Of a stretch of 22,621 bases of DNA, positions 5,442-22,621 are shown one piece after another. This DNA is from a virus, in IMG/VR virus record IMGVR_UViG_3300020469_000286, positions 1 through 22,621 of that record. One strand, 5' to 3'. A program made the translations under genes and the position numbers. A model generated the notes under the pieces. It had not been told where the DNA came from. It was given only the letters and a program-made list of their open reading frames with translations, and ran no database searches. How positions within the stretch are numbered: the stretch's first letter is position 1; every line of letters begins with the position of its first letter.

Positions 5442-5455
5442 TAAAGACGCTTTTT

Positions 5456-5463
5456 CATAAATA
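5456..5463 (+). promoter_or_regulatory. late promoter-like box CATAAATA ahead of gp18
   Basis: CATAAATA (7 of 8 to T4 TATAAATA) in the 56-base gap between genes 17 and 18, 35 bases before the chosen gp18 start. It probably gives strong late transcription of the sheath and tube genes. Confidence 0.6.
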
Positions 5464-5497
5464 TCAATAGTCATTGTATGTGGAGAAAGAAGTTAGA

Positions 5498-7678: not shown

Positions 7679-7693
7679 TAGAGGAACCAAACA

Positions 7694-8329
7694 ATGGCAC
7701 TAGATAGAAACATTTTTTCTATACCTAACAACGAGAGATCAATTGACTCTTTCAAATCAAGACTCATTGGTGGTGGTGCTCGTCCTAATCTATTTGAGGT
7801 TGAGCTAAACTTTCCGTCAGGTGTAGGTATATTTGATGATGAGATAGAAAACACTACTCATCGTATGATGATCAAGGGAGCACAATTACCAGCGTCTAAC
7901 ATCGCTGAAGTTATTGTTCCTTTCAGAGGTCGTCAACTCAAGGTTGCAGGAGATCGTAGATTCGATCCTTGGACAATCACAGTTATCAACGATAACGATT
8001 TCAAACTAAGAACAGCATTCGAGAGATGGGCAAACTACATCGTCAAAGTATCTGACGGTTCAGGAACCCTAAACCCTGCTGAATACTACACTGATTGGGT
8101 AGTAAACCAGTTGGGTCGTGCTAACACAGATCTAAATGTAAAAGGAAAGGACAACCCTGCTGCATTACCTGTACTAAGACGCTACCAAATGGTTGGTTGC
8201 TGGCCAAGTGCAGTAAGCACAGTTGAACTATCTTATGATCAAGTAGATGCTGTAGAAGAGTTCCAAGTAACACTTCAAGTTCAGTACTGGACTGCTTATG
8301 ATGGCAACAATACTGATTCTGTGGTATAA
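7694..8329 (+). CDS. 19: gp19 tail tube protein
   Basis: Forms the hexameric rings of the inner tail tube through which DNA passes. It follows gp18 directly after 15 bases containing GAGGAA (7681-7686), a good ribosome-binding site for this ATG. Family features visible are an early SFKSRLIGGGARPNLFEVEL segment, IKGAQLPASNIAEVIVPFRG at about residues 57-76, then RRFDPWTITVINDNDFKLRT and AFERWANYI. The C-terminus has EFQVTLQVQYW. The length, 211 aa, exceeds T4 gp19 (163 aa) but fits cyanophage tube proteins. No obvious late box precedes it, so it is probably read from the gp18 promoter. Confidence 0.93.
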   Translation: MALDRNIFSIPNNERSIDSFKSRLIGGGARPNLFEVELNFPSGVGIFDDEIENTTHRMMIKGAQLPASNIAEVIVPFRGRQLKVAGDRRFDPWTITVINDNDFKLRTAFERWANYIVKVSDGSGTLNPAEYYTDWVVNQLGRANTDLNVKGKDNPAALPVLRRYQMVGCWPSAVSTVELSYDQVDAVEEFQVTLQVQYWTAYDGNNTDSVV

Positions 8330-8335
8330 TAAATA
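8328..8335 (+). promoter_or_regulatory. late promoter-like box AATAAATA ahead of gp20
   Basis: AATAAATA (7 of 8 to TATAAATA) overlaps the gp19 stop codon (8327-8329), in the 25-base gap between genes 19 and 20, 20 bases before the gp20 ATG. An SD-like AAGGT (8344-8348) follows at good spacing. Confidence 0.5.
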
Positions 8336-8354
8336 TATCGAATAAGGTAATATA

Positions 8355-10031: not shown

Positions 10032-10034
10032 ATA
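10027..10034 (+). promoter_or_regulatory. exact T4-type late promoter TATAAATA
   Basis: TATAAATA matches the T4 late promoter at all 8 bases. It overlaps the gp20 stop (10029-10031) and lies 25 bases before the ATG at 10059. It should drive the prohead core genes (67-like, the 10261 ORF, 21). Confidence 0.65.
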
Positions 10035-10058
10035 GGGTTAGCGTTACTTTAAAATATA

Positions 10059-10259
10059 ATGGATACCAATGAATTGCTAGGTATGATGTCTAATGATGAG
10101 ACTTCCTCATCAGAAGTTCATGATGCAATAAAAACCTTGCTATACCAAAAAAGTGCAGAGAAGGTGGATCAAATAACACCTACAGTCGCTGCTACTCAGT
10201 TTGGTAAACAAGAGGAACCATCTGACGCTGTTGAATCAGAACCGCAAGAAGAGGAGTAA
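10059..10259 (+). CDS. gp67-like prohead core peptide
   Basis: A 66-aa protein with the architecture of T4 gp67: a short N-terminal region, one helix (about residues 20-37, VHDAIKTLLYQKSAEKVDQI) and a very acidic tail (PSDAVESEPQEEE). In T4, gp67 is an internal scaffold component of the prohead, lies between genes 20 and 21, and is degraded by the gp21 protease to small acidic internal peptides. Position and composition both fit here, but T4 gp67 is longer (80 aa) and sequence identity is too low to claim by eye. It could be an unrelated core protein. A perfect late promoter box is 25 bases upstream, and the next ATG follows one base after its stop. Confidence 0.6.
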   Translation: MDTNELLGMMSNDETSSSEVHDAIKTLLYQKSAEKVDQITPTVAATQFGKQEEPSDAVESEPQEEE

Positions 10260-10260
10260 A

Positions 10261-10821
10261 ATGCCACAGGTATTAAGTTTAGTCTCTGACCATGGAGAAG
10301 TAAGTAGCAACAATGCTACGACTGCTGCTTCTGGTGCAAAGGCTGTGAAAAGCGGTATTTTATACATTGCATGTAGTTCTGAAAAAAAGTCAGGACACAT
10401 CACTGTATGTAATACCATCGCCCAAACGGGTGTAGGATCTTTTCATGTAGAGAAAGGTGGAGACTTTTTATATCGTTACGGACATCCTGCTCACGCAAAA
10501 GCAATGTCTGTCACAAAAGCAAATCCATGTGTGATTACATTGGATAGGCAAGATACAAAATTCAGAGTTGGTGATTATATTACCATGACTGGATCAGCAG
10601 TTGGTACTTATAATAGTACCCTTGCTCACAAAGAAATTACTGCAATACAGTACCCACAGAGATCTAACGAATTCAAATGTAAGATCACTGTTGATGCTAA
10701 TACATCATCTCTCGCTGACTTCACAGGAGACGCAGAGTTGACTAAGACAGTTATTTTTAGAATGGCACCCGAAACATCAGATGGGTGTACTATGCATTTG
10801 CACGAGGTAAACCTAGGATGA
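10261..10821 (+). CDS. unknown beta-rich protein in the prohead operon
   Basis: I do not recognise this 186-aa product. The ATG at 10261 follows the previous stop by one base; a longer frame opening at a GTG at 10201 would overlap the acidic peptide gene and is less likely. The sequence is rich in Thr, Ser, Ala and Val with alternating hydrophobics (SGILYIACSS, RVGDYITMTGSAVG, KTVIFRMAP), which suggests a beta-sandwich. There is no signal peptide, membrane span or catalytic motif. Four cysteines are spread over the protein. Its place between the gp67-like peptide and the gp21 protease, with overlaps on both sides, suggests a head component such as a decoration or core protein. That is inference from context alone. 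The stop overlaps the gp21 start (ATGA). Confidence 0.7.
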   Translation: MPQVLSLVSDHGEVSSNNATTAASGAKAVKSGILYIACSSEKKSGHITVCNTIAQTGVGSFHVEKGGDFLYRYGHPAHAKAMSVTKANPCVITLDRQDTKFRVGDYITMTGSAVGTYNSTLAHKEITAIQYPQRSNEFKCKITVDANTSSLADFTGDAELTKTVIFRMAPETSDGCTMHLHEVNLG

Positions 10822-11465
10822 AACTAATTTCAGAAGAGATCGAATCAGTAGAAGTTCTGACCGAAGAAAAAAACGGGAAGAAGACTCTATACATTCAAGG
10901 TCCTTTTTTACAAGCAGAAATCGTAAATCGCAATAAAAGATGCTATCCATTGCAAACAATGGTGAACGAAGTGAAGCGTTATAACGAAGCACATGTAGGC
11001 ACAGGTCGTGCTCTTGGTGAACTAGGACACCCCGATGGTCCTCAAATTAACCTTGATAGAGTATCACATAAAATTGTATCTCTTCAACAAGAAGGTAATA
11101 ATTTTGTAGGTAAGGCACAGATACTTTCAACACCTATGGGTAAGATTGCTTCTTCTCTTATTGGGGAGGGAGTCAAGTTAGGAGTATCATCTAGAGGTAT
11201 GGGTTCTATCATATCAAGAGATGGTGTGAGTTATGTGGGCGAAGACTTTATGCTCGCCACTGCTGCTGATATAGTGGCAGATCCCAGTGCACCAGACGCT
11301 TTTGTGGATGGTATCATGGAAGGAAAGGAATGGGTATGGGAAGGTGGTATGCTACGTGAAAAAGCATGCAAGGGCGCACAAAGAAAGATTGATACCCTAG
11401 TCGACGAAGGAATATTAGAGGCAAACAAACTTAAATTGTTCGCTAATTTCTTATCAGAACTATAA
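10818..11465 (+). CDS. 21: gp21 prohead maturation protease
   Basis: Serine-type protease that assembles inside the prohead and processes the scaffold, gp23 and other head proteins before packaging. I chose the ATG at 10818, which overlaps the preceding stop (ATGA) and gives 215 aa, against 212 in T4. An in-frame ATG at 10785 would only add residues inside the upstream gene. Family motifs are GELGHPDGPQINLDRVSHKI with candidate catalytic His71, LGVSSRGMGS with candidate Ser124 or Ser125, and ADIVADPSAPDAFV, a conserved acidic patch at about 150-163. The C-terminal helix is charged. A site of the preferred L-x-E type is visible in the gp23 encoded at 12638. Confidence 0.94.
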   Translation: MKLISEEIESVEVLTEEKNGKKTLYIQGPFLQAEIVNRNKRCYPLQTMVNEVKRYNEAHVGTGRALGELGHPDGPQINLDRVSHKIVSLQQEGNNFVGKAQILSTPMGKIASSLIGEGVKLGVSSRGMGSIISRDGVSYVGEDFMLATAADIVADPSAPDAFVDGIMEGKEWVWEGGMLREKACKGAQRKIDTLVDEGILEANKLKLFANFLSEL

Positions 11466-11468
11466 ATT

Positions 11469-11476
11469 GATAAATA
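11469..11476 (+). promoter_or_regulatory. late promoter-like box GATAAATA ahead of gp22
   Basis: GATAAATA (7 of 8 to TATAAATA) in the 49-base gap between genes 21 and 22, 39 bases before the gp22 ATG. It is likely the late promoter for gp22 and, by read-through, gp23. Confidence 0.6.
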
Positions 11477-11514
11477 ATAACAGTATTCATACGAAAATAC
11501 GGAAAAGTTAACCA

Positions 11515-12603
11515 ATGGCTGCGAAAAAACAACTACATGAAATGGAGAACCAGGTTACAAAGGGCGCAGCGAAAGCAGACCCTATGCCTAAAGCTCCATC
11601 ATACGTACCTGACAACGGTGCGATAGAAGATTTAGGAGGACCTACTCCTACAAACGGAAAACCAACTGATGATTCTCATAAGTTGAAGACACCTACTGCA
11701 ACATTTGCACAACAAGGTGATCCTCAAACTAAGGGAACAGCAGGTAAGGTTCAATTACCAGGACCCGGTGCTATAAAAAGCAGTGGATATGGTAAAGGTG
11801 CAAACGAAGAGACTGCATCTGAGGAAGAAGCAGTTGTTGAAACTCCCGTATCTGAGTCTGAATCACCTGAGGAAGAAGTAGCAAAAGAGATCGTAATTGA
11901 CGTTGCGGATGATGTTGCTGCACTCTTAGAAGGCGAAGAACTTTCTAAAGAGTTCCAAGAAAAGACTGCTACAATCTTTGAAGCGGCTGTAAAGTCCAAG
12001 ATTGAACAAGTTGCTGAACAACTTGAAGAGCAGTTCACAAAAGCATTTGATGAGGAGATTGCTTCTCACAAATCAGAACTTACAGAGCGTGTTGACTCTT
12101 ACTTAGAGTACGTCGCTAATGAGTGGATCAATGAGAATGCACTCGCTGTAGAAACTGGAATAAGAGGTGAACTCTCTGATTCCTTTATGAGTGGTCTTAA
12201 GACCCTCTTTGAAGAACATTATGTTGAAATCCCTGAAGACAAATACGATGTCTTAGAAGCAATGACTTCTAAACTAGATGAAATGGAAACAAAACTAAAT
12301 GAGCAGATAGAAAGTAACGTAGAATTGACTAAGCGTCTTTCAGTATCTGTGTCAGACAACATCCTTGATGAAGTAAGTGAAGGTTTGGCGTTATCTCAAA
12401 AGGATAAACTCTCCGAACTATCTAACGGTGTTGAGTTTGAAAGTGAAGAACAGTACAGAGAAAAACTATCTACACTCAAGGAGTCGTATTTCAATGCGAA
12501 ACCAATTGTAGAAAACTCTGAAATCAACCCTGAGGATGCGATTCCTGAGGATCATGGATCAGCAATGAACGCATATTTGTCAGCGTTGACAAAGTTCCAA
12601 TAG
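11515..12603 (+). CDS. 22: gp22 prohead core scaffold protein
   Basis: Main internal scaffold around which the gp23 shell assembles; it is later degraded by gp21. From about residue 115 the protein is highly acidic and helical, with long heptad-like stretches (SKIEQVAEQLEEQFTKAFD, KLDEMETKLNEQIESNVEL), as in T4 gp22. The C-terminal end (residues about 330-362) has SAMNAYLSALTKFQ, typical for cyanophage gp22. The length is 362 aa against 269 in T4. The extra part is mostly a Pro/Gly/Thr-rich, probably disordered N-terminus (about residues 1-115). L/I-x-E sites suitable for gp21 cleavage occur in the helical part, for example IFEAA near 153. GGAAAAG at 11501 is a plausible ribosome-binding site. 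Confidence 0.9.
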   Translation: MAAKKQLHEMENQVTKGAAKADPMPKAPSYVPDNGAIEDLGGPTPTNGKPTDDSHKLKTPTATFAQQGDPQTKGTAGKVQLPGPGAIKSSGYGKGANEETASEEEAVVETPVSESESPEEEVAKEIVIDVADDVAALLEGEELSKEFQEKTATIFEAAVKSKIEQVAEQLEEQFTKAFDEEIASHKSELTERVDSYLEYVANEWINENALAVETGIRGELSDSFMSGLKTLFEEHYVEIPEDKYDVLEAMTSKLDEMETKLNEQIESNVELTKRLSVSVSDNILDEVSEGLALSQKDKLSELSNGVEFESEEQYREKLSTLKESYFNAKPIVENSEINPEDAIPEDHGSAMNAYLSALTKFQ

Positions 12604-12637
12604 TCAATTTTTAAATTACACCCATAAGGTAAGCCAA

Positions 12638-14044
12638 ATGTTTAATTCTGGACAACTCCAGAAGAAGTGGCAACCACTCTTAGAGGCAGAAGGATTAGAT
12701 AAAATCCAAGACAACCACAGAAGAGCAGTTACCGCCCAACTTCTAGAAAACCAAGAAAGATTTTTAAGAGAAGAGAGAGCATTCTTGTCAGAAGCTCCTC
12801 CAACAGTAAACACTGACCCATCAGGAACTGGAGCCGCAGGTTTCAGTGGTGGTGCATCAGTTGGTGGACCTGTTGCTGGTTTCGACCCAGTTCTAATTTC
12901 ATTGATCAGAAGATCAATGCCAAACCTCGTTGCATACGACCTAGCTGGCGTTCAACCAATGAACGGACCAACTGGATTGATCTTCGCAATGAGATCCAAG
13001 TACGACAACCAGAACGGTACAGAAGCATTCTTCAACGAACCAGATTCTGCATTCTCTGCTCAAGACTCCGACGCATCATTCACACAGGGTGATTACACAG
13101 GAGCAACTGACGGAGATTCAGATGTTGGTTTCGGTACAACTGCACAAGGTGGTGGTAACCCATCAATCTTGAACGGTGGTGCAGAGAACGCTTACTCAGT
13201 TGGACAAGGTTTCAAGACTCAACAGTCTGAAGCTTTAGGCGACGGTGCTAACAACGACTTCCGTGAGATGGCGTTCAGCATCGAGAAGGTATCTGTGACT
13301 GCGAAGTCAAGAGCCCTCAAAGCTGAGTACAGTTTAGAACTAGCACAAGACCTCAAGGCGATCCATGGATTGGATGCAGAGGCTGAGTTAGCAAACATCC
13401 TTTCTACTGAGATCCTAGCGGAAATCAACAGAGAGATCATCCGTACAATCTATAAGGCAGCAAGACCTGGTGCTCAAGTCAACACAGCAACAACTGGTGT
13501 ATTTGACTTAGACACAGACAGTAACGGAAGATGGATGGTTGAGAAGTTCAAAGGTATGATCTTCCAACTAGAAAGAGATGCTAACGCAATCGCACAAGAG
13601 ACTCGTAGAGGAAAGGGTAACATCATCCTTTGTTCTGCTGACGTTGCTTCATCGCTAACAGCTGCTGGTCAACTAGACTACACACCTGCACTTTCATCTA
13701 ACATGAACGTTGATGATACTGGTAACACATTCGCAGGTACTCTAAACGGTAGATACAAAGTTTACATCGATCCATTCGCTGCAAACCTAACTGCTGATCA
13801 GTACTACGTCATGGGATACAAGGGATCTAACCCTTATGATGCTGGTCTATTCTATTGCCCTTACGTTCCACTACAGATGGTAAGAGCAGTTGGACAAGAC
13901 ACATTCCAACCAAAAATTGGTTTCAAAACCAGATATGGAATGGTTGCTAACCCATTTGCTGAAGGTACAGATCAAGGTCTTGGTAGAATTACTGGTAACA
14001 GTAACAGATACTACAGACGTGTTAAAGTTACAAACCTTATGTAA
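12638..14044 (+). CDS. 23: gp23 major capsid protein
   Basis: HK97-fold subunit of the capsid hexamers. The N-terminal region up to about residue 52 is the delta domain. FLSEAPPT at 49-56 fits the gp21 consensus (L-x-E), predicting cleavage after E52, as T4 gp23 is cut after E65. Conserved stretches include DPVLISLIRRSMPNLVAYDL, GVQPMNGPTGLIFAMRSKY, SRALKAEYSLELAQDLKAIH and GNIILCSADVAS. The C-terminal region has GRITGNSNRYYRRVKVTNLM. The length, 468 aa, is shorter than T4 (521), as usual for cyanophages. AAGG at 12626-12629 is the ribosome-binding site. No NATAAATA box is visible in the 34-base leader. A strong terminator follows the gene. Confidence 0.97.
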   Translation: MFNSGQLQKKWQPLLEAEGLDKIQDNHRRAVTAQLLENQERFLREERAFLSEAPPTVNTDPSGTGAAGFSGGASVGGPVAGFDPVLISLIRRSMPNLVAYDLAGVQPMNGPTGLIFAMRSKYDNQNGTEAFFNEPDSAFSAQDSDASFTQGDYTGATDGDSDVGFGTTAQGGGNPSILNGGAENAYSVGQGFKTQQSEALGDGANNDFREMAFSIEKVSVTAKSRALKAEYSLELAQDLKAIHGLDAEAELANILSTEILAEINREIIRTIYKAARPGAQVNTATTGVFDLDTDSNGRWMVEKFKGMIFQLERDANAIAQETRRGKGNIILCSADVASSLTAAGQLDYTPALSSNMNVDDTGNTFAGTLNGRYKVYIDPFAANLTADQYYVMGYKGSNPYDAGLFYCPYVPLQMVRAVGQDTFQPKIGFKTRYGMVANPFAEGTDQGLGRITGNSNRYYRRVKVTNLM

Positions 14045-14066
14045 GCGAGTTGCTTATATTTTTCAG

Positions 14067-14092
14067 AGAGACCCTAATGGGTCTCTTTTTTT
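14067..14092 (+). terminator. rho-independent terminator after gp23
   Basis: Perfect 8-bp stem AGAGACCC / GGGTCTCT with a TAAT loop, running into T7. It closes the head gene unit. The sequence continues ATGCTA, as do two other terminators in the window. Confidence 0.93.
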
Positions 14093-14099
14093 ATGCTAT

Positions 14100-14107
14100 G
14101 ATAAATA
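14100..14107 (+). promoter_or_regulatory. late promoter-like box GATAAATA behind the gp23 terminator
   Basis: GATAAATA lies 8 bases after the terminator T-run and 19 bases before the ATG at 14126, as expected for a new late unit. An extended -10-like TGCTATGAT (14094-14102) overlaps it, so host-type initiation is also possible. Confidence 0.55.
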
Positions 14108-14125
14108 TTATAGTACGACTACATT

Positions 14126-14317
14126 ATGAAAGATCAAGGATCTATTGGAGTTGAGACTCCAGCAATCAAATATGATAGAGCACTTTCTATCTTCATCGAA
14201 TCAGTAATGGCACCCGATCCTAAACTGAGAGGGTGTGCCCATAATCAAGGATGCTACGATGAATTGATGGGCATACGAGAAAACGTTCTTGACTATTTAA
14301 AAACACTACGTAAGTAA
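14126..14317 (+). CDS. small helical protein of unknown function
   Basis: A 63-aa product, first gene of the unit after gp23. I do not recognise it. It appears helical in its N-terminal half (AIKYDRALSIFIESVMA) and C-terminal half (GIRENVLDYLKTLRK), separated by a loop with two cysteines (GCAHNQGCYDE, residues 36-46). There is no signal peptide or membrane span. The stop overlaps the start of the next gene (TAATG), which argues for a real, coupled gene. No convincing ribosome-binding site is visible upstream. It may be a small assembly or regulatory protein, but nothing in the sequence decides this. Confidence 0.7.
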   Translation: MKDQGSIGVETPAIKYDRALSIFIESVMAPDPKLRGCAHNQGCYDELMGIRENVLDYLKTLRK

Positions 14318-14904
14318 TGGCAGACACTAGGGTTAGAGGTGCTACACCTCCATTCAAACTAAACGAACCTTCTAATAGGAACTTCCTATCAATAGTTGGG
14401 TTCAAATTTTTGCTGAACCGTTGCCCTAAAGTTAGTTTCTTTTGCAACCAAGCAAATATACCAACTGTAACTCTTGGCACTACAACACAAGCATCGTACC
14501 TTCGTCAAATACCTATACCTGGCACAGAGTTATCTTACGAAGATCTGACTCTGAGTTTTATAGTTGACGAAAACTGCGAGAATTACTTGCAGATATATGA
14601 TTGGATTACTGGACTAGGATTTCCTGAGTCACTACAACAGTATGAAGATCTGAAGAAAGTAAATAGATTTTATCCTGATGCTGCTGAGAGAGATCAGTTT
14701 GCAGAGAGATCCGATGGAACATTGATGGTTCTGAATAGTGATTACAACCCAAGTATCTCTATTAAGTTCAAGGATTTATTCCCTGTTGCACTATCTGGTG
14801 TACCATTTGACTCAACAGAAACAGAGCAAAGATATTTTACCGCAATGGTTACCTTTAAATATACTATTTTTGATGTGATTGACGTAAATGGAACTAAGGT
14901 CTAA
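14317..14904 (+). CDS. 3: gp3-like tail completion / tube terminator protein
   Basis: A 195-aa protein with the features of the tail-tube fold family shared by T4 gp3, gp19 and gp54. It has a region NIPTVTLGTTTQASYLRQIP (about residues 48-66), then IPGTELSYEDLTLSFIVDEN and NYLQIYDWITGLGFP. The C-terminal half has SISIKFKDLFPVALSGVPFD and ends in beta strands (MVTFKYTIFDVIDV). In T4, gp3 caps the tube end and helps stabilise the sheath. The gp3 identity is inferred from the position between gp23 and uvsY/uvsW and from length (T4 gp3 176 aa). The alternative is a second tube-like or baseplate initiator protein (gp54-like). It starts on the stop of the preceding ORF, and its end overlaps the uvsY start by 17 bases. 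Confidence 0.65.
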   Translation: MADTRVRGATPPFKLNEPSNRNFLSIVGFKFLLNRCPKVSFFCNQANIPTVTLGTTTQASYLRQIPIPGTELSYEDLTLSFIVDENCENYLQIYDWITGLGFPESLQQYEDLKKVNRFYPDAAERDQFAERSDGTLMVLNSDYNPSISIKFKDLFPVALSGVPFDSTETEQRYFTAMVTFKYTIFDVIDVNGTKV

Positions 14905-15340
14905 GACTTTAAGTCTTGAAATGATTCAAGACATGTGGGAAAAAGACGCAAAGATAAATCAAGATGAACTTGATACTGAGTCTCTAAGAATCCCACAATT
15001 ACACGCTACTTATTATGAGCTATATAATACGATACTGCTCATGCGAAAGCGTGAAGAGCAGATACATTGTAATGTTCTACTAGATCGGAGAAAGTATTAC
15101 ACAGGTAAGGCAACTGCATCTGTATATGAAGCAGAACCATTTCCTTACAAAGTCAGAGACAAGGATGATCTCAAGTTATATCTTGAGGCAGACGAGAAAC
15201 TCAGAAAGACTAAACTAAAGATCGAGTACTATGACACTATGTTGAAGTACATCGAAGAAATACTAAGACAAGTCTCCAATAGAACTTACCAGATAAAAAA
15301 CGCTATTGAATGGAGACGTTTCAACGCTGGTTATGGCTGA
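14888..15340 (+). CDS. uvsY: UvsY recombination mediator
   Basis: Recombination mediator that loads the UvsX recombinase onto gp32-covered single-stranded DNA. The 150-aa length is close to T4 UvsY (137). Conserved features are SLEMIQDMWEKDAKINQDEL at the start, LRIPQLHATYYELYNTILLM, the basic LLDRRKYYTGKA motif (about residues 63-75, compare T4 ARLDYYSGRG), LEADEKLRKTKLKIEYYDTM, and the closing NAIEWRRFNAGYG (T4 has a similar end at MRAFEAGK). The ATG at 14888 lies inside the gp3-like gene. An ATG at 14921 would remove 11 residues and cannot be excluded. The stop overlaps the uvsW ATG. Confidence 0.88.
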   Translation: MELRSKTLSLEMIQDMWEKDAKINQDELDTESLRIPQLHATYYELYNTILLMRKREEQIHCNVLLDRRKYYTGKATASVYEAEPFPYKVRDKDDLKLYLEADEKLRKTKLKIEYYDTMLKYIEEILRQVSNRTYQIKNAIEWRRFNAGYG

Positions 15341-16781
15341 TCTAACTATAAGAAAGAAGAACGAAGTCTTTCTAAAAATTGATTGCGACCCACACATACG
15401 ACACGAGTTACAGGACGAGTTCACCTTTGATGTACCAGGTGCAAAGTTTATGCCTCAGTACCGTAGTAAGTATTGGGATGGTAAGATAAGATTATTTAAT
15501 GTACAGAAGAATGAGATATATGTTGGTCTTCTTGATAAGATTGTTGTATTTTGTCAGAGATATAATTACGAGTTTGAATTTGAGAACTCCAAGTTTTATG
15601 GGCTCCCTTATCAAGAGACGGAATCAATCTCTCGTGAGGGAGTAAAGGATTACCTAACGGGAATCTCGAAGTACAAACCTCGTGACTATCAGATTGATGG
15701 GGTGTTTGATGCATTACAAAAGAATCGTAGACTGATTATATCACCAACAGGGTCTGGTAAGTCCCTAATGATCTATGCTATTACACGATACCATAAAGAA
15801 TATGGTAGGTCAACCCTTATTATTGTCCCTACTACCTCTCTGGTAGAACAGATGTATAAGGACTTTATAGATTATGGATGGAATGTCGAAGATATTTGTC
15901 ATAGAATATATGCTGGAAAGGATTTGTTGAGTCAACACCCAGTTATTATAAGCACATGGCAGTCAATATACAAGTTACCTAAGGACTGGTTCAATAGGTT
16001 TGATGTAGTGATTGGGGATGAGGCACATCAGTTTAAGTCTAAATCATTAGTAAGTATAATGACAAAACTTTATGACACAAAATACAGGTATGGTTTCACA
16101 GGTACGCTTGATGGTACACAAACTCATAAGTGGGTACTTGAAGGTCTATTCGGACCCTCTTATAAAATCGTCAATACTAAGGAGTTACAGGAGAAAGGTT
16201 ATCTAGCAACACTAAACATAAAGGTTCTGCTACTCAAACATGAACCTAAGAAGTTTGATGCTTATCAAGATGAAATAGAATATATTATTTCACATGAAAA
16301 AAGAAATAAATTTATAAAAAACCTAGCACTGGACTTGAAAGGTAACACATTGATACTTTTTAGTAGGGTTGCTACCCATGGAGAAGTCCTATTTGAACTA
16401 ATAAATAGAGACGATAGGAAAGTATTCTTTATTCACGGTGGTGTGGATGCTGAAGAAAGAGAAACTGTCAGAGGTATAGCGGAGATTGAAAACAACGCTA
16501 TTATAATTGCTTCCTTTGGAACATTTTCCACTGGTGTCAATATAAAGAACCTTCACAATGTCGTATTCTCTTCTCCATCTAAGTCTAGAATAAGGACACT
16601 GCAATCTATCGGCAGAGTATTACGTAAGAGTAATACCAAGTTGAATGCTACATTATATGATATAGCAGACGATACCAAGAAAGGATCAGTCCAGAACTAT
16701 ACTTTGAATCACTTAATTGAGAGAATCAAATACTACAACGAGGAAAAATTCAACTATGACATCATCCAAATCAAAATTTGA
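15333..16781 (+). CDS. uvsW: UvsW RNA-DNA and branched DNA helicase
   Basis: Superfamily 2 helicase that unwinds R-loops and branched DNA, shifting replication from origin-dependent to recombination-dependent initiation. I chose the ATG at 15333 (MADLTIRKKNEVFLKID, 482 aa) over a TTG at 15306. The N-terminal domain (residues 1-100) contains PGAKFMPQYRSKYWDGKIRL, as in T4 UvsW. Helicase motifs are Q-like KPRDYQ (115-120), Walker A PTGSGKS (138-144), DEAH (229-232), FTGT (255-258) and motif VI QSIGRVLRK (424-432). Motif V is around GVNIKNLHNVVF. The length compares with 503 in T4. It overlaps the uvsY stop by 8 bases. Confidence 0.95.
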   Translation: MADLTIRKKNEVFLKIDCDPHIRHELQDEFTFDVPGAKFMPQYRSKYWDGKIRLFNVQKNEIYVGLLDKIVVFCQRYNYEFEFENSKFYGLPYQETESISREGVKDYLTGISKYKPRDYQIDGVFDALQKNRRLIISPTGSGKSLMIYAITRYHKEYGRSTLIIVPTTSLVEQMYKDFIDYGWNVEDICHRIYAGKDLLSQHPVIISTWQSIYKLPKDWFNRFDVVIGDEAHQFKSKSLVSIMTKLYDTKYRYGFTGTLDGTQTHKWVLEGLFGPSYKIVNTKELQEKGYLATLNIKVLLLKHEPKKFDAYQDEIEYIISHEKRNKFIKNLALDLKGNTLILFSRVATHGEVLFELINRDDRKVFFIHGGVDAEERETVRGIAEIENNAIIIASFGTFSTGVNIKNLHNVVFSSPSKSRIRTLQSIGRVLRKSNTKLNATLYDIADDTKKGSVQNYTLNHLIERIKYYNEEKFNYDIIQIKI

Positions 16782-17202
16782 AGAACCGTATGAAGACTTT
16801 CTTGCGGCTATCAAACTTGTAAGTGGTGAAGAGATACTGTCAAAGGTTGTTGTCTGTAGTGACGATGACGATAGAATTATTCTAGAGAATCCAGTTGTAT
16901 GTCAAGAAGTTCGCACCCCTGGTGCGAATATCCCGTTGGGATATAAATTTGAACCTTGGATGAAATTGACTGATGAAGAGGTTTTTATAGTTGACATGAA
17001 TAGAATTATTACGATGTCTGAGATAAAAGATAAGGAAGTAAATAAAACATATTCTACAATCATCCAGCAAGGGTTCACTCGCTCACACCCTGAGATTACT
17101 AAAGAAATGGGTTATGTAAACTCTGTAGATGATGCAAGAAAGTCTTTTGAAGACTTGTACAAGAAGGATTCTAAGGACTCTAAGGATACAAAAGAAACTT
17201 AA
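16756..17202 (+). CDS. possible Sm-like (LSm-type) protein
   Basis: A 148-aa protein. I chose the ATG at 16756, with GAGG at 16740-16743 as ribosome-binding site; an upstream in-frame start at 16717 lies well inside uvsW. Residues 15-88 follow an Sm-like pattern: FLAAIKLVSGEEILSKVVV (bent strands 1-2, as in Sm1), RIILENPVV (strand 3), a 20-residue variable segment, and EEVFIVDMNRIITMSEI (strands 4-5, as in Sm2). The pattern K-L-x-[ST]-G-E-E-I is common to small Sm-like proteins of marine myoviruses. The C-terminal 50 residues are charged and end in repeated KDSKDSKDTKET. An RNA- or protein-binding ring is an inference. It overlaps the uvsW end by 26 bases. Confidence 0.75.
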   Translation: MTSSKSKFEEPYEDFLAAIKLVSGEEILSKVVVCSDDDDRIILENPVVCQEVRTPGANIPLGYKFEPWMKLTDEEVFIVDMNRIITMSEIKDKEVNKTYSTIIQQGFTRSHPEITKEMGYVNSVDDARKSFEDLYKKDSKDSKDTKET

Positions 17203-17242
17203 TACTTGTCCCTTGAACCCCTACAGGGTAATTGTAACCCTA

Positions 17243-17272
17243 TTGCACGGACTTGTCAAGCTGTGCTATAAT
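17243..17272 (+). promoter_or_regulatory. host sigma-70-like promoter with extended -10 ahead of gp55
   Basis: TATAAT at 17267-17272 is preceded by TGC (17264-17266), giving an exact extended -10 element. A weak -35 TTGCAC (17243-17248) lies 18 bases upstream. It sits in the 93-base gap before gp55, 23 bases before the ATG. It should be read by unmodified host polymerase, so gp55 would be made before late genes. Confidence 0.75.
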
Positions 17273-17295
17273 TTGTATAGATTCATACACAGGTA

Positions 17296-17763
17296 ATGCC
17301 CAGAAAAAGATCAGAGCACTACGTCAATAATAAGGAATTCCTTGCTGCTATCATTGATTACAAGGATGAGATAATTATTGCAGAGAAAAGAGGATTACCT
17401 AAACCAGTTATCCCCAGATACATTGGAGAATGTTTTCTAAAGATAGCAACACACTTATCATTCAAACCAAACTTTGTAAACTACATGTTCAAAGATGATA
17501 TGGTTTGTGATGGTATAGAGAACTGTGTCCAGTATATTTCTAACTTCAATCCTGATAAGTCTAGAAATCCTTTTGCATATTTTACACAGATAATACACTA
17601 TGCATTCCTAAGAAGAATACAGAAAGAGAAACGTCAGTTAGATATAAAACAAAAGATAATAGAAAAGTCTGGATATGACGAAGTCTTCGTCGCAGACGAA
17701 GCGGATAAGTCTTCTGAGTATAACTCTATCAAAGATGCTGTACAATATAGAACCAACAGATGA
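17296..17763 (+). CDS. 55: gp55 late-transcription sigma factor
   Basis: Phage sigma factor that directs host RNA polymerase to late promoters of the TATAAATA type; several such boxes are present in this window. Diagnostic segments are EFLAAIIDYKDEIIIAEKRG, IPRYIGECFLKIATHLSFKP, the PNFVNYMFKDDMVCDGIENC stretch, and NFNPDKSRNPFAYFTQIIHY with YAFLRRIQKEKRQ (about residues 83-118), which is sigma region 2 (core binding and -10 recognition). There is no region 4, as in T4. The length is 155 aa against 185 in T4. The C-terminus ends NSIKDAVQYRTNR, without an obvious hydrophobic-acidic motif like the one T4 gp55 uses to bind the sliding clamp. It has its own extended -10 promoter. Its stop overlaps the next start (ATGA). 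Confidence 0.95.
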   Translation: MPRKRSEHYVNNKEFLAAIIDYKDEIIIAEKRGLPKPVIPRYIGECFLKIATHLSFKPNFVNYMFKDDMVCDGIENCVQYISNFNPDKSRNPFAYFTQIIHYAFLRRIQKEKRQLDIKQKIIEKSGYDEVFVADEADKSSEYNSIKDAVQYRTNR

Positions 17764-17951
17764 AACTAACACAAGAAATTATCGACCAGATTCAAGAAGC
17801 AATGCTTCACACCAAAAAGAATGGTGATATCAACTGGGAAGATGGTGATGATATAGATGTCTGTCTTGCAGGTACATTTGCAGCAGATAGATTTATTGTC
17901 ATACATAACAGAACAAAAAGCAGCACATCAAAACAGAATTTTGTAAAATGA
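17760..17951 (+). CDS. small unknown protein between gp55 and gp47
   Basis: A 63-aa product I cannot assign. It has an N-terminal helix (MKLTQEIIDQIQEAMLHT), an acidic middle (INWEDGDDIDVCLAG), a short hydrophobic strand (RFIVIHN) and a basic Ser/Thr/Lys tail. There is no membrane span or signal peptide. It overlaps gp55 upstream and gp47 downstream by 4 bases each (ATGA in both cases), which supports a real coupled gene in the sigma/recombination operon. Its length and position suit a small regulatory or accessory protein, but no function can be read from the sequence. Confidence 0.75.
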   Translation: MKLTQEIIDQIQEAMLHTKKNGDINWEDGDDIDVCLAGTFAADRFIVIHNRTKSSTSKQNFVK

Positions 17952-18988
17952 AAGTTGCTATCATAACAGATCAACACTTTGGTTTCAAGAAAGGTTCTAA
18001 ATTATGGTTAGATTACTTTCAGAAATTTTATGATGATATATTCTTTCCTACATTAGAGAAGCACGGTATAGATACTATTCTGGATCTAGGAGATACTTTT
18101 GATAATAGGAAAGGTGTGGATCTATGCTCTCTCAATTGGGCAAAGGACAATTACTTTGATCCTATTCGAGATAAAGGAATGTCCATGATTAGTATAGTTG
18201 GCAATCATACTGCTTTCTATAAGAATACCAATGACATCAACACTATAGATCTGATGCTTAGAGAGTATAAGAATATACGTATCCTTGAAGAGTGTGAAGA
18301 GATAACTGTAGGTGGTCTACCAATACTGTTTATACCTTGGATCAACGCAGAAAATAATACAACAACATATAAGATGGTCAAGGATAGTAAGTGTAAAGTT
18401 GCTATGGGACATCTAGAACTCAATGGGTTCGTTGCCACACATGGGCATGTAATGGACGTAGGAGCAGACTTTGAGTGTTATGATCACTTTACACATGTAT
18501 TCTCTGGACACTACCATACAAGGTCAAATAACGGTAGGATATATTACCTAGGGAATCCATATGAAATGTTTTGGAATGATTGTAATGATAAAAGAGGGTT
18601 TCATATTTACGACACAGAAACTCTGAGACTAAAGACAATCAATAACCCATATCAGATGTACAAGATTATCAATTACGCTGATACACCCAGACAATTGACT
18701 AAGTTTGAGGATTATAGGAACAAGATAGTCAAGGTTGTAGTCAAACAGAAGAGTGATGAGAAAGAGTATGAAAGATTTATGCAATCGTTAGCAAAGGTGC
18801 ATCCATATGATATTAAGGTGGTAGAAAGATCAGTAAATATGCTTGCACCAGATGAGAACATAGCACAGACAGAAGATACTATGACACTACTCAATACATA
18901 CGTTGATGATCTAAGCACAGATCTAAATAAATCAAAAATCAAGGACATTTTGAGAGTTACTTATCAAGAGGCATGCGAGATTATCTGA
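17948..18988 (+). CDS. 47: gp47 recombination endonuclease subunit (Mre11-like)
   Basis: Mre11-type metallophosphoesterase that with gp46 resects double-strand ends for recombination-dependent replication and repair. All the metal-binding motifs are present in order: D8 and H10 (IITDQHFGF), D49 (DLGDTFDNRK), N86 and H87 (IVGNHTAFY), H155 (AMGHLELNG), H188 and H190 (FSGHYHTR). The C-terminal third (about residues 240-346) is the capping and gp46-binding part. The length, 346 aa, matches T4 gp47 (339). It starts on the 4-base overlap with the preceding ORF, and its TGA shares a base with the next ATG (TGATG). Confidence 0.96.
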   Translation: MKVAIITDQHFGFKKGSKLWLDYFQKFYDDIFFPTLEKHGIDTILDLGDTFDNRKGVDLCSLNWAKDNYFDPIRDKGMSMISIVGNHTAFYKNTNDINTIDLMLREYKNIRILEECEEITVGGLPILFIPWINAENNTTTYKMVKDSKCKVAMGHLELNGFVATHGHVMDVGADFECYDHFTHVFSGHYHTRSNNGRIYYLGNPYEMFWNDCNDKRGFHIYDTETLRLKTINNPYQMYKIINYADTPRQLTKFEDYRNKIVKVVVKQKSDEKEYERFMQSLAKVHPYDIKVVERSVNMLAPDENIAQTEDTMTLLNTYVDDLSTDLNKSKIKDILRVTYQEACEII

Positions 18989-19248
18989 TGCATATTATTA
19001 CACCAAAACATAGCACTGATGAGGGTGCATACGCTGTACATAACGAGTATGGTGAGAAGGTTGTATTCTTTTTTGTAGAGAAAGATGATGCTGAAAGATA
19101 TGCTATGATGTTAGAAGGTACAGGTGAACCCATAATGAAGGTGATGCATGTTGCTGATCGTGTAGCAATTGCTGCTTGCGAAAAAACAGGAACAAGGTAT
19201 ACTGTAATAGGTAAAGATGATTTCGTAATCCCAGTCAAATCTAAGTGA
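18988..19248 (+). CDS. DUF3110-like protein (cyanobacterial-type)
   Basis: An 86-aa protein inserted between the two subunits of the gp46/47 nuclease. The pattern DEGAYAVHNEYGEKVVFFFV then EKDDAERYAMMLEG and VADRVAIAACEKTGTRYTVI matches, from memory, DUF3110, a small domain found mainly in cyanobacteria and their phages. Its function is unknown to me. The start at 18988 shares a base with the gp47 stop (TGATG) and is preferred over an in-frame ATG at 18973. The end overlaps the gp46 GTG start. The predicted fold is alpha/beta with no membrane span. This host-type domain supports a cyanobacterial host. Alternatively it could be a phage family that merely resembles DUF3110. Confidence 0.8.
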   Translation: MHIITPKHSTDEGAYAVHNEYGEKVVFFFVEKDDAERYAMMLEGTGEPIMKVMHVADRVAIAACEKTGTRYTVIGKDDFVIPVKSK

Positions 19249-20957
19249 TCCGTTTCAAACAAATTCGTTATAAGAACTTTCTTTCATCAGGAAATCAATT
19301 CACATCTATAAAGTTAGATGAGAATAAGGATACCCTGATTGTTGGTGCAAATGGTTCGGGTAAGAGTACGGTTCTAGATGCTCTGACTTTTTCGTTGTTC
19401 GGAAAACCGTTCCGAAAAGTAACTAAGGGTCAGTTAGTCAACAGCACAAACGAAAGAGATGCTGTAGTAGAAATACAATTTGATATTGGTGATGTACCTT
19501 ACAGGGTAATACGAGGCATCAAACCTAATATATTTGAGATTTACAAACATGGGAAAAAATTCAATGAAGACTGTTCTGCCAATGATCAACAAAAGTCTTT
19601 GGAAGGACAAATACTCAAACTCAACTACAAATCTTTCACTCAAATTGTTATTCTTGGGAGTGCTTCTTTCGTTCCCTTTATGCAACTTAGTGCTCCACAT
19701 CGCAGGGAAGTTATAGAAGACTTGCTTGACATCAAAGTTTTTTCTATGATGTCAGATATCTTGAAGACTCAACTCAAGCAGTCAAGGGATAATTTGAGGG
19801 TACTGGAACTAAAGAAAGAATCAGTTGCAGACAAAATTATAATGCAAAAGAAATTTATCAAACAAATAGAGGATGAAGGTTATGACAGCATCAGTTCCAA
19901 ACAACAAAAGATCCAGAATTGTGATACCGAAACGGAAGAATACCAAAGGAGTGTTGAGGATCTCATCTCTAAAGTCAACAATAAGGAGACAGATATCAAA
20001 CAGTATACTAAATCAAGTAATACTATAAAGAAATTAGAAAAATTAAAATCAAAAATACAGACCAAAGAATCTAACTCTAGTCATGAACTGGATTTTTTTG
20101 AAGCACATTCGGTTTGTCCTACATGTACACAGGACATAGAGGAGTCATTTAGAGTAAATAGAGTTGAACACCTCCAAGGAGTTCTTGCCAAACATCAAAG
20201 TAGTTTGGATGAAATAACCTCTGCTATAGAAACAGAGGAAGAACGAGAACAACAGTTTCTCAAACTCCAGAAGGAGATTACAACCCTATCAAATGAAGTT
20301 TCTCAATTCAATATTAGAATTGCTAACAATAACAGACAACGAGGAAATCTTGAAACAGAAATTCAAAACATTACCGACAGACTTGAGAATAAAAATACTG
20401 AAGACGAGAAACTAACTGAATATAAGAACCAACTAAAAGATATATTACTAACACTAGATAAAACTGAAGAGGAGTACGATTACTTGGAACAGGGTAACGA
20501 ACTACTCAAGGATGATGGTGTAAAGAAGAGTATTATAAGAAAGTATCTACCTCTAATCAACCAACAGGTCAATGAGTATCTACAGAGGATGGATTTCTAT
20601 GTCAATTTCTTGTTAGATGAAGACTTCAATGAGACTGTGCAGACACCTGTACATGAAAAGTTCTCTTATGCTTCATTCTCTGAGGGTGAAAAGATGAGGA
20701 TTGACCTTGCACTTCTGTTTACATGGAGAGAGATAGCAAGGATGAAGAACAGTGTTGTCACAAATTTGCTAATCATGGACGAAGTTTTCGACTCATCACT
20801 AGATGAATTTGGTACAGAATACTTCCTCAAAATTATACGATATATTATCAAGGATGCCAACGTGTTTATAATCTCACACAAACAAGACATGTACGATAAA
20901 TTCAATCACTGTCTAGAGTTTACTAAGGACAAGGGGTTTTCTAAACTAAACACTTGA
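19245..20957 (+). CDS. 46: gp46 recombination endonuclease subunit (Rad50/SbcC-like)
   Basis: SMC-type ATPase partner of gp47. It starts at GTG (19245), overlapping the preceding TGA; a nearby ATG start is absent and the family N-terminus (IRFKQIRYKNFLSSGNQF) begins here. Walker A is at about residues 34-41 (GANGSGKS). The region FGKPFRKVTKGQLVNSTNE matches T4 gp46 closely. Coiled coils run from about 170-285 and 300-415 and flank a zinc hook CPTC (C291, C294). The ABC signature is SFSEGEK (477-483), Walker B LLIMDEVFD (508-516), and the H-loop is at SH (544-545). The length is 570 aa against 560 in T4. The last codons overlap the -35 box of the downstream promoter. Confidence 0.96.
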   Translation: MIRFKQIRYKNFLSSGNQFTSIKLDENKDTLIVGANGSGKSTVLDALTFSLFGKPFRKVTKGQLVNSTNERDAVVEIQFDIGDVPYRVIRGIKPNIFEIYKHGKKFNEDCSANDQQKSLEGQILKLNYKSFTQIVILGSASFVPFMQLSAPHRREVIEDLLDIKVFSMMSDILKTQLKQSRDNLRVLELKKESVADKIIMQKKFIKQIEDEGYDSISSKQQKIQNCDTETEEYQRSVEDLISKVNNKETDIKQYTKSSNTIKKLEKLKSKIQTKESNSSHELDFFEAHSVCPTCTQDIEESFRVNRVEHLQGVLAKHQSSLDEITSAIETEEEREQQFLKLQKEITTLSNEVSQFNIRIANNNRQRGNLETEIQNITDRLENKNTEDEKLTEYKNQLKDILLTLDKTEEEYDYLEQGNELLKDDGVKKSIIRKYLPLINQQVNEYLQRMDFYVNFLLDEDFNETVQTPVHEKFSYASFSEGEKMRIDLALLFTWREIARMKNSVVTNLLIMDEVFDSSLDEFGTEYFLKIIRYIIKDANVFIISHKQDMYDKFNHCLEFTKDKGFSKLNT

Positions 20958-20982
20958 CAATGCCCTTGGTGTGGTGTACTAT
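20954..20982 (+). promoter_or_regulatory. sigma-70-like promoter after gp46
   Basis: A consensus -35 TTGACA (20954-20959) overlaps the gp46 stop codon. With a 17-base spacer the -10 is TACTAT (20977-20982). A TATACT follows at 20982-20987. It predicts a transcript start near 20990, roughly 85-110 bases before the start of the secreted protein gene, giving a structured leader. Confidence 0.65.
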
Positions 20983-21029
20983 ATACTGATACAAAGGACT
21001 CGAAAGATCGTACCCCTGCGTAGATAAAA

Positions 21030-21074
21030 AGACACCCATGTCGGGGTCGTCTAACATCCGCAAGGGATTTTTTT
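21030..21074 (+). promoter_or_regulatory. structured leader: hairpin plus terminator-like T-run
   Basis: A hairpin at 21030-21052 pairs AGACACCC with GGGT-c-GTCT (8 bp, one bulged C, 6-base loop). A short ATCC / GGAT stem with loop GCAAG (21056-21068) then runs into T7. This could be an attenuator or the end of a small RNA starting near 20990. Alternatively AAGGG (21062-21066) could be a ribosome-binding site for an ATG at 21075. Confidence 0.4.
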
Positions 21075-21101
21075 ATGCCCATGCGAGATACAATAAAACA
21101 C

Positions 21102-21461
21102 ATGTCAATTAAATCAACAATCGCTGCAATAGCAGCAACTCCTCTTCTAGTATCTGGTGCAGCTTTTGCTGGTCCATATGTTAATTTGGAAGCAACTGGA
21201 TCATATCCTGATGGAGCATATACATCTGGTGGTCTTGAAGCAGTAGTTGGATACGAAGGAACAACAGAAGGCGGAATCGGATACTATGTATCTGGTGGTC
21301 CTACAGTTACTCATACAGAAACTTCTGATGAGTTCGGTGATGTAGAATTCATTGGATACCTTGGTGGTTCTTATGATAAGTTCTACGGAGAGATCTCTGG
21401 AGTAACTAACAACGATGACGTCGACTGGGGTGCTAAAGCAGGTGTGAAGTTCACATTCTAA
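21102..21461 (+). CDS. secreted beta-barrel-like (outer membrane) protein
   Basis: A 119-aa protein with a clear Sec signal peptide: MSIK, hydrophobic core STIAAIAATPLLVSG, then AAFA before a probable cleavage after residue 23. The mature 96 residues alternate polar and hydrophobic residues, are rich in Gly, Tyr and acidic residues (VGYEGTTEGGIGYYVSGGP, GYLGGSYDKFYGEISGV), and end in GVKFTF. A terminal Phe after an alternating strand is the usual C-terminal signature of outer membrane barrels. The role is unknown; it may modify the host envelope or mimic a small porin. An upstream in-frame ATG at 21075 would add 9 residues and has AAGGG at good spacing, so the start is uncertain. It is preceded by a TTGACA promoter and followed by a terminator. 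Confidence 0.75.
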   Translation: MSIKSTIAAIAATPLLVSGAAFAGPYVNLEATGSYPDGAYTSGGLEAVVGYEGTTEGGIGYYVSGGPTVTHTETSDEFGDVEFIGYLGGSYDKFYGEISGVTNNDDVDWGAKAGVKFTF

Positions 21462-21488
21462 ATAATACTGGTTCGAGATGGATCAATG

Positions 21489-21514
21489 AGGGGTGCTTGA
21501 CACCCCTTTTTTTT
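21489..21514 (+). terminator. rho-independent terminator with an embedded -35 box
   Basis: 7-bp stem AGGGGTG / CACCCCT with loop CTTGA, followed by T7. It ends the barrel gene unit. The loop and descending arm contain TTGACA (21497-21502), which is the -35 of the promoter that follows. Confidence 0.93.
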
Positions 21515-21526
21515 ATGCTATATAAT
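21497..21526 (+). promoter_or_regulatory. consensus sigma-70 promoter embedded in the terminator
   Basis: TTGACA (21497-21502), an 18-base spacer that consists mostly of the terminator T-run, then TATAAT (21521-21526). Both hexamers match consensus exactly. TGCTATATA at 21516-21524 offers an extended -10 in a shifted register. It lies 20 bases before the ATG at 21546. Confidence 0.8.
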
Positions 21527-21545
21527 AAACGGACTAGGTAAGATT

Positions 21546-22211
21546 ATGGATCAAGATGAAGCAATGTTTGGTGCGGAAACCAACCCTAAGAAAAAACCAT
21601 CTAATGGTGGCAAGTGGAAGTGGATATCATTTGGTATAGTAGGCAGTCTATTCGCTGTCTCACATCTTGGTATGATAGGATATATTGCAAGTAGAAAAGA
21701 AACACCTAAGTTACCAAGTTTAGATATACCTGTAGGTCCTTACACATCATATAAGGCAAGTGTAGCAGATGATGGTTATGTTATTTCATATAAAGCAAAC
21801 GATCCCAAGACAGCATTCATCACTAAGGAGATCAAAGAGAAGGGTGGATTCTTAGGATTAGCAAACGAGACAACTCAGATTACTGAAGAGTACTTCATGG
21901 ATGGTAAGATAAACCAAGGAGGACCTGTATCTAATCAGAGATCATGGATTGATTCACCACCAGGTTTGACTGATGCACAAGCACAGCAGATAACTGAGTA
22001 TCGAAAAAGTGAAGCCTGTATCAAAGCAATTGGATCAGCAGAAGGCACAGGCAGACTCGTGGGTACCTCGGTTGGTGCTAGTGCTGCTCCTGCTCTCAGT
22101 GGTATCCCCTTTATTGGTTGGGTCGCTGCTGGTTGGGTGGCAATGTTTGGTGGCAATCAAGGTGCTGATATAGGTGGTAACATGGCAGAAGGTCTAAACA
22201 AAGATTGCTAA
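21546..22211 (+). CDS. single-span membrane protein of unknown function
   Basis: A 221-aa protein. The first 25 residues are charged and Lys-rich (KKKPSNGGKWKW), followed by one membrane span at about 26-48 (SFGIVGSLFAVSHLGMIGYI). Basic residues sit before the span, predicting an N-in topology with the long C-terminal part outside the cytoplasm. The external part contains SWIDSPPGLTDAQAQQITEY and a glycine-rich hydrophobic stretch at about 164-215 (GTSVGASAAPALSGIPFIGW and AAGWVAMFGGNQGADIGGNM). That stretch resembles glycine-zipper segments that insert into or pack on membranes. Two cysteines (C158, C221) could form a disulfide. I do not recognise the family. Possible roles are envelope modification, superinfection exclusion or lysis, none shown. 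It is driven by the promoter embedded in the preceding terminator, and its stop overlaps the next small ORF. Confidence 0.75.
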   Translation: MDQDEAMFGAETNPKKKPSNGGKWKWISFGIVGSLFAVSHLGMIGYIASRKETPKLPSLDIPVGPYTSYKASVADDGYVISYKANDPKTAFITKEIKEKGGFLGLANETTQITEEYFMDGKINQGGPVSNQRSWIDSPPGLTDAQAQQITEYRKSEACIKAIGSAEGTGRLVGTSVGASAAPALSGIPFIGWVAAGWVAMFGGNQGADIGGNMAEGLNKDC

Positions 22212-22300
22212 TGTGGGAAGGTATACTTATCATTGGAGTCGGGTCTATTGTCCTCACTATTGTTGATGCATGGATCAGGGAGAAAGTAAGAAAGAAATAA
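22211..22300 (+). CDS. 29-aa membrane microprotein
   Basis: ATG at 22211 overlaps the previous stop (TAATG). The product starts MWEGILIIGVGSIVLTIVDA and ends in a basic tail (WIREKVRKK): one hydrophobic helix with an N-out, C-in charge bias. The TAA at 22298-22300 is followed four bases later by a perfect terminator, so the ORF fills the space between gene and terminator exactly. It is probably coupled to the upstream membrane protein and may be its small partner. The function is unknown. Confidence 0.55.
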   Translation: MWEGILIIGVGSIVLTIVDAWIREKVRKK

Positions 22301-22303
22301 ACC

Positions 22304-22327
22304 AGACCCCTTCGGGGGTCTTTTTTT
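22304..22327 (+). terminator. rho-independent terminator with UUCG tetraloop
   Basis: 7-bp stem AGACCCC / GGGGTCT closed by a TTCG tetraloop on a C-G pair, followed by T7. It ends the membrane protein unit and continues ATGCTA into a late-promoter-like box. Confidence 0.95.
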
Positions 22328-22329
22328 AT

Positions 22330-22357
22330 GCTAAATAGTAACACTTCTTTATAAATG
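22330..22357 (+). promoter_or_regulatory. two late promoter-like boxes after the terminator
   Basis: GCTAAATA at 22330-22337 and TATAAATG at 22350-22357 (7 of 8 to TATAAATA) lie directly after the terminator. The second is 20 bases before the ATG at 22377, the same spacing seen ahead of gp20. Confidence 0.45.
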
Positions 22358-22376
22358 AATGTCAGAGATTAGACAC

Positions 22377-22484
22377 ATGATTGAAATGGTGGTGATGATA
22401 ATATTTTTCACAACGGTGCCAGTAGCGTTAGTCCTCAACCTATTTTTCAAGTTCTCGCAAGGGAATGATAAGCGTAGTTTATAA
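22377..22484 (+). CDS. 35-aa membrane microprotein
   Basis: ATG at 22377 to TAA at 22482-22484. The product has one hydrophobic helix (MIEMVVMIIFFTTVPVALVL, continuing NLFFKF) and a polar, mostly basic tail (SQGNDKRSL). It stands alone between a terminator with late-type boxes and a host-type promoter, so the space appears to exist for this peptide. The ribosome-binding site is weak (AGAGAT). It could be a holin-like or small bilayer peptide. I considered a small photosystem subunit but see no diagnostic residues. Confidence 0.5.
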   Translation: MIEMVVMIIFFTTVPVALVLNLFFKFSQGNDKRSL

Positions 22485-22514
22485 TAGTTATAAGTGTTGC
22501 TTATGTAATAATAC

Positions 22515-22543
22515 TTTACAAAGTTTTATATTTCCTATATAAT
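22515..22543 (+). promoter_or_regulatory. near-consensus sigma-70 promoter at right end
   Basis: TTTACA (22515-22520), 17-base spacer, TATAAT (22538-22543). It lies 28 bases before the ATG at 22572 and is read by host-type polymerase, consistent with early or host-like expression of the next gene. Confidence 0.8.
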
Positions 22544-22571
22544 TATGTAACAAAAGTTCATATTACTTCAA

Positions 22572-22621
22572 ATGACCGTAACAACTGAATCAGGTGGTAG
22601 ACAAAACGCTTTCCCAACTGA
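22572..22621 (+). CDS. start of a gene, possibly high-light-inducible (Hli) protein
   Basis: Only 16 full codons are in the window: MTVTTESGGRQNAFPT, then a partial GA that could begin Glu or Asp. The segment GGRQNAFPT resembles the leader of many cyanophage Hli proteins, in which a G-R-x-N-x-[FY] motif precedes the chlorophyll-binding helix. The helix itself is beyond the window, so this is a weak call. A strong host-type promoter directly upstream fits a photosynthesis auxiliary gene. It could equally be another small cyanophage protein. Confidence 0.4.
   Translation, partial: MTVTTESGGRQNAFPT

Follow-up and report, generated by a model that had tools for sequence, protein, structure and literature searches.

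The gene content of the window, i.e. the whole stretch of 22,621 nucleotides that was analysed, marks it as a T4-like cyanophage fragment (22.6 kb), and its genes (those for tail and capsid as far as gp23, then uvsW, gp55, gp47 and gp46) are ordered as in P-RSM4 and P-SSM4. Two genes frame the element described here. The upstream gene encodes an outer-membrane-protein-like beta barrel of cyanophages and is preceded by a separate promoter; the downstream gene encodes a conserved protein of 221 aa, for which no family was found in a Pfam search and in which an N-terminal membrane segment is likely from the sequence. The hairpin of the element lies 26 bases behind the stop codon of the barrel gene, and the composite occurs once in the fragment. 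Coordinates are collected in Table 1, together with those of the related hairpins of Enterococcus phage SAP6.

Table 1. Features of the locus in the window and, in the last row, of the SAP6 genome
Feature	Position	Strand	Basis
Separate sigma-70-like promoter TTGACA-17-TACTAT, upstream of barrel gene	20954..20982	+	promoter scan
Upstream gene, Phage_OMP (PF24653), cyanophage outer-membrane-protein-like beta barrel, 128 aa	21075..21461	+	Pfam E=1e-29
Terminator hairpin overall	21488..21508	+	sequence, fold, stem covariation in family
Hairpin 5' arm GAGGGGTG	21488-21495	+	direct reading
Hairpin loop CTTGA	21496-21500	+	direct reading
-35 hexamer TTGACA	21497..21502	+	sequence; recurrence in other phages
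Hairpin 3' arm CACCCCTT	21501-21508	+	direct reading
T-run (terminator U-tract and large part of promoter spacer)	21507..21514	+	sequence
ATGCTA between T-run and -10	21515-21520	+	sequence
-10 hexamer TATAAT, spacer 18 bp	21521..21526	+	sequence; also in L004, L008, L009
Putative transcription start (about 21533) and 13-nt leader	21533..21545	+	inferred from -10 position and sequence
Downstream gene, 221-aa conserved cyanophage protein	21546..22211	+	relatives are T4-GC 219 in P-RSM4 and P-SSM4
UUCG-loop terminator of ordinary type at the end of the downstream unit, loop without -35	22304..22321	+	scan and fold
SAP6 (L482-L484), hairpins spanning a -35	12843	+	
	21408, 26027, 28671, 31217, 34847, 38215	-	

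Read directly, the stretch from 21488 to 21526 has the order GAGGGGTG-CTTGA-CACCCCTT-TTTTTT-ATGCTA-TATAAT, in which an 8-bp stem closes a 5-nt loop and is followed by six more T. This is the arrangement of an intrinsic terminator (a GC-rich hairpin directly abutting a U-run), and the RNA of 21488-21514 folds with -12.6 kcal/mol (z -4.6), a stability that none of 200 shuffled sequences equalled. The original prediction had placed a terminator at 21489-21514; the terminator is real, but its stem begins one base earlier. Its proposal that a -35 hexamer lies within the loop and 3' arm also held, TTGA forming four of the loop bases and CA the first two bases of the arm. TTGACA and TATAAT, at the 18 bp proposed, match sigma-70 at 12 of 12 positions and lie within the 16-18 bp of a sigma-70-type promoter; no other such match exists in the 17.6 kb scanned (5000-22621). 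The spacer (21503-21520) is T at 8 of its 18 positions and is, as had been claimed, largely the T-run of the terminator. Its length lies at the long edge of the range seen in the family (3 of 62 members among the matches listed), and the TG of an extended -10, which most relatives possess, is shifted out of register. The predicted leader contains a short Shine-Dalgarno-like AGG (21536-21538); its shortness counts against the promoter reading.

Several structural genes of the window are preceded by NATAAATA boxes (5456, 8328, 10027, 11469 and 14100), the cyanophage late promoter, thought to act via the phage gp55 pathway (PMC2984593). Cyanophages have none of the factors with which T4 modifies the host polymerase for early gene expression, and so their early genes are thought to use the unmodified host polymerase and sigma-70 promoters (PMC2984593). 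No NATAAATA box, and hence no T4-type late promoter, was found near 21521 in front of the 221-aa gene, and the element accordingly reads as a signal that would stop the barrel transcript and start the next one with host polymerase. A late-promoter reading of TATATAATA was rejected as first choice, since the late genes of the window use NATAAATA and the perfect -35 would be left unexplained. The late promoter likewise stands behind a terminator in one place (14065-14107), but is devoid of a -35, unlike the element studied. There, a terminator right after gp23 is followed about 12 bases later by the late-promoter box GATAAATA, a tandem that forms a late-phase counterpart of the element. The three strong plus-strand terminators (tails at 14086-14098, 21507-21520 and 22321-22333) also share the tail TTTTTTTATGCTA, the TATGCTA of which has bases in common with the TG-N-TA of an extended -10, and terminator tails may in this way be pre-adapted to become promoters. 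The idea that TTTTTTTATGCTA marks a repeat family was discarded, as only one of the three window terminators carrying it has a -35; it is a common terminator tail and not the signal itself.

How often such a composite would arise by chance was estimated from simulated windows (first-order Markov, n=1,500). Perfect TTGACA-16/18-TATAAT pairs appeared 0.035 times per simulated window, and a terminator-promoter composite in none of the 1,500, even with a loose -10 (any TAnnnT). The search of other cyanophages that had been suggested with the original prediction was carried out on 2.34 Mb containing 229 terminators, a set made up of loci fetched by protein similarity (thus chosen independently of the motif), five named genomes and the window. 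TTGAC lies inside the hairpin of 33 of these terminators, and behind 29 of them a -10 (at least 4/6 match to TAnnnT) follows at 16-18 bp. When near-identical elements are collapsed, a -10 is found in 13 of 16 distinct elements with TTGAC versus 20 of 130 without (Fisher P=1.6e-7). As controls within the same 229 terminators, the reverse complement GTCAA occurs four times and two other reorderings zero to one time; other letter orderings of TTGAC at loops average 1.3 occurrences, against 16 for TTGAC itself. Among 6-mers at terminator loops, TTGACA is one of the commonest and ranks just below UUCG-type words. With zero to two TTGACA-bearing terminators in each of the five named genomes, the composite is thus used regularly, though not in large numbers. 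Copies stand in cultured relatives, namely P-RSM4 (120750), P-HM1 (112709 and 176429), P-SSM4 (173779), P-SSM2 (142801) and S-TIM4 (120817).

When IMG/VR was scanned for exact matches to the pattern CTTGACA-N3-9-TTTTTTATGNTANNNT, which requires six T but no hairpin, at least 120 stretches matched, compared with four for a control with the hexamer reversed. A hairpin closed around the -35 and abutting the T-run is present at 59 of 102 distinct viral sites among the matches listed, a sample that includes related cyanophages, where 4.6 are expected from shuffled upstream sequence; in bacterial and archaeal species genomes it is present at 7 of 117 sites among the matches listed (0.9 expected). 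The spacer measures 16 or 17 bp in 58 of 62 hairpin sites among the matches listed, although 13-19 bp were allowed. Such clustering is, from the sequences compared, what a promoter requires and a terminator would not. Outside cyanophages, the register of TTGACA in loop and arm varies, as does loop size (3-8 nt), while the spacing stays at 16-17 bp. These members, identified by genome match for a few, include SAP6 and Lactococcus phage P1048. SAP6 has seven hairpins spanning a -35 in its 58.6 kb genome, five of which scored with a full T-run, and several copies fit short stop-to-start gene gaps (e.g. DNA primase / transcriptional regulator); some of the stems are similar but diverged. P1048 has six such hairpins, four with a T-run. 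As in the window, the -35 lies in the hairpin loop or arm, the T-run serves as spacer and the -10 follows at 16-18 bp; the phage lineages and hosts are, however, unrelated and the stem sequences different, and the shared geometry probably reflects convergence. Taken as sequence evidence, these comparisons indicate that the composite is non-random and reused across many phages rather than a coincidence.

Constraint on the stem was examined in 20 distinct 21-base hairpins in the register of the window, selected for TTGACA and a stem. They are paired at 98.8%, a figure biased upward by the selection, and in six of the eight pairs both bases have changed. The two invariant pairs are those formed by the CA of TTGACA, and their invariance follows in part from how the set was chosen; the six with double changes are informative and point to constraint on both stem and promoter. 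The same junction is preserved in the nearest relatives. In loci L008 and L009 the barrel gene, the element and the 221-aa gene follow one another as in the window, and L004 begins at the element and continues into the 221-aa gene. All three keep both hexamers, whereas the base preceding TTGACA is c, g or a and the spacer measures 18 bp in L004 versus 17 bp in L008 and L009. The equivalent junction showed no case of a stem retained with both hexamers lost, the pattern that the original prediction had named as speaking against it. The central claim of that prediction, that one element is both terminator and promoter, is strongly supported by the comparison (stems unrelated in sequence but each self-complementary, TTGACA kept and a -10 at the right distance).

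Elsewhere, the 221-aa gene is found without the -35 composite, so that element and gene are separable: behind gp23 in other phages it follows a different hairpin and then TATATAATA without a -35, and in further phages it comes directly after other genes with no gap. Since the gp23-linked genes keep TATATAATA without a -35, the -35 may not be indispensable for the 221-aa gene. As this gene changes neighbours, comparison of orthologues across its loci is of limited use. At five gp23-linked loci (L017, L036, L038, L052 and L054), a conserved CCTATATAATA box stands behind the terminator, with neither a -35 nor NATAAATA.

Composites of promoter and terminator are known from T4-like phages as the promoter-early stem-loop (PeSL) motif (Arbiol et al. 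2010; Comeau et al. 2014; cited in PMC4503421). The window element shares with PeSLs a sigma-70-like early promoter fused with a stem-loop, a short intergenic location, a T4-like phage and varied neighbours. Scored from the genomes of the type phages RB49, T4 and KVP40, however, its layout is not theirs. The hairpin lies mostly in the -35/-10 spacer or around the -10 in RB49 and surrounds the -10 in T4, while in KVP40 the -35 forms part of the hairpin 5' arm, and nearly all of these composites are without a T-run; the window element has its -35 in the loop and a canonical U-tract that makes up much of the spacer. Filing it as an exact PeSL by the RB49 layout was abandoned after inspection of the three genomes. 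It appears from sequence to be a distinct variant of the PeSL-type composite when compared with these genomes, and the PeSL papers may already mention its layout; a literature search for phage start-site maps brought up none that shows it. Syn9 has two composites of the spacer type. RB49 also contains tandems of a terminator and a separate promoter (e.g. 45322 and 34481, minus strand), which follow the same stop-then-start logic with adjacent signals that, unlike those of the window element, share no bases. In KVP40 (AY283928; L486-L491), at least six near-identical repeats (near 21147, 59699, 85859, 97800, 100194 and 121377) place the TTGAC of the -35 in the 5' arm (AAAGGGTTGAC...GTCAGCCCTTT), before TATTAT or TATTCT.

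From these signals, the element is likely to be a stop-and-restart punctuation between the barrel gene and the 221-aa gene, in which an intrinsic terminator and an early promoter for host sigma-70 overlap. At the end of the barrel transcript, host RNA polymerase would form the hairpin and U-tract and release the RNA near 21508-21514, whereas the same DNA as a duplex would act as a consensus promoter from which host polymerase starts the 221-aa transcript at about 21533. Such an element would most likely serve the early, host-polymerase phase and would shield the downstream promoter from read-through. The two signals, their fusion in many phages and the constraint on stem and promoter are features of the sequences compared; from them we infer that both signals function in the cell, as well as their timing and the start and end positions.

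Why the two signals should overlap has several candidate answers, namely re-initiation, insulation and mere economy. Re-initiation coupled to termination, in which polymerase stays on the DNA after RNA release and restarts at the overlapping promoter, is favoured by the nil distance between terminator and promoter, and in vitro experiments with E. coli polymerase have shown the enzyme remaining bound once an intrinsic terminator has acted, diffusing along the DNA and initiating again at promoters close by (PMC6978380). The behaviour is, however, known only in vitro with the E. coli enzyme and had not been observed in vivo according to the same source, and its operation here is doubtful. It would give the overlap a function, but simple economy of space would also suffice. 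In a broader and tentative form, possible rather than probable, unrelated phage lineages may repeatedly have evolved the stop-restart element with its -35 in the loop and its U-tract spacer because the overlap allows restart on the spot, the arrangement being far rarer in bacterial chromosomes.

It has been proposed for PeSLs that their chief role is to provide a short shared sequence for swapping the gene that follows. Consistent with this, one 21-base hairpin sequence is present at 21 places, and composites behind gp23 (named by position and sequence), Hsp20, RegA and the barrel gene each precede five to eight different downstream families, with 26 upstream by 49 downstream neighbour clusters in all. 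Stems nevertheless differ widely between elements, which limits homology, and a cyanophage study judged PeSLs too sparse to account for the genes gained by S-PM2 (PMC4503421). Recombination as the chief role is unlikely here; as an additional role it is compatible with the stop-and-restart reading. The original prediction also envisaged an active switch, in which promoter-bound and terminating polymerases interfere and each process tunes the other. By sequence their footprints must overlap, and the geometry is kept in many phages, but compactness alone could explain the overlap, and such tuning is rather improbable.

An ordinary terminator with a chance TTGACA, the 221-aa gene being driven by another promoter or by read-through, is very improbable: the two other window terminators with the TTTTTTTATGCTA tail and no -35 imply that the tail alone is no sign of a promoter, and some relatives lack the -35, but TTGACA is enriched and correctly spaced and recurs with different stems, all of which argues against chance. 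Least credible is that TTGA is merely a loop favoured for RNA hairpin stability or folding, with the -35 resemblance a by-product, since the single fixed register of CTTGA in most cyanophage cases is offset by the promoter-spaced -10 found far more often behind TTGAC loops and by the other phages, which vary register and loop size yet hold the spacing.

The stop-and-restart element offers a compact and countable signal. The same bases have to satisfy both of its readings, RNA hairpin and DNA promoter, so that sequence alone is enough to locate it and to delimit transcription units with it, including those of uncultured phages, marine or other. Since it occurs in unrelated phages and is rare among the bacterial matches listed, whether the overlap has a function can be tested directly, SAP6 with its seven hairpins in 58.6 kb being a good experimental system. 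The element is also a ready-made small part for genetic design.

Two small inverted repeats lie between the barrel promoter (20954) and the start of the barrel gene (21033-21075). The second, ATCC-GCAAG-GGAT followed by a T-run, abuts the first ATG of the gene; it is possibly a leader attenuator, or else the true start is possibly a later in-frame ATG.
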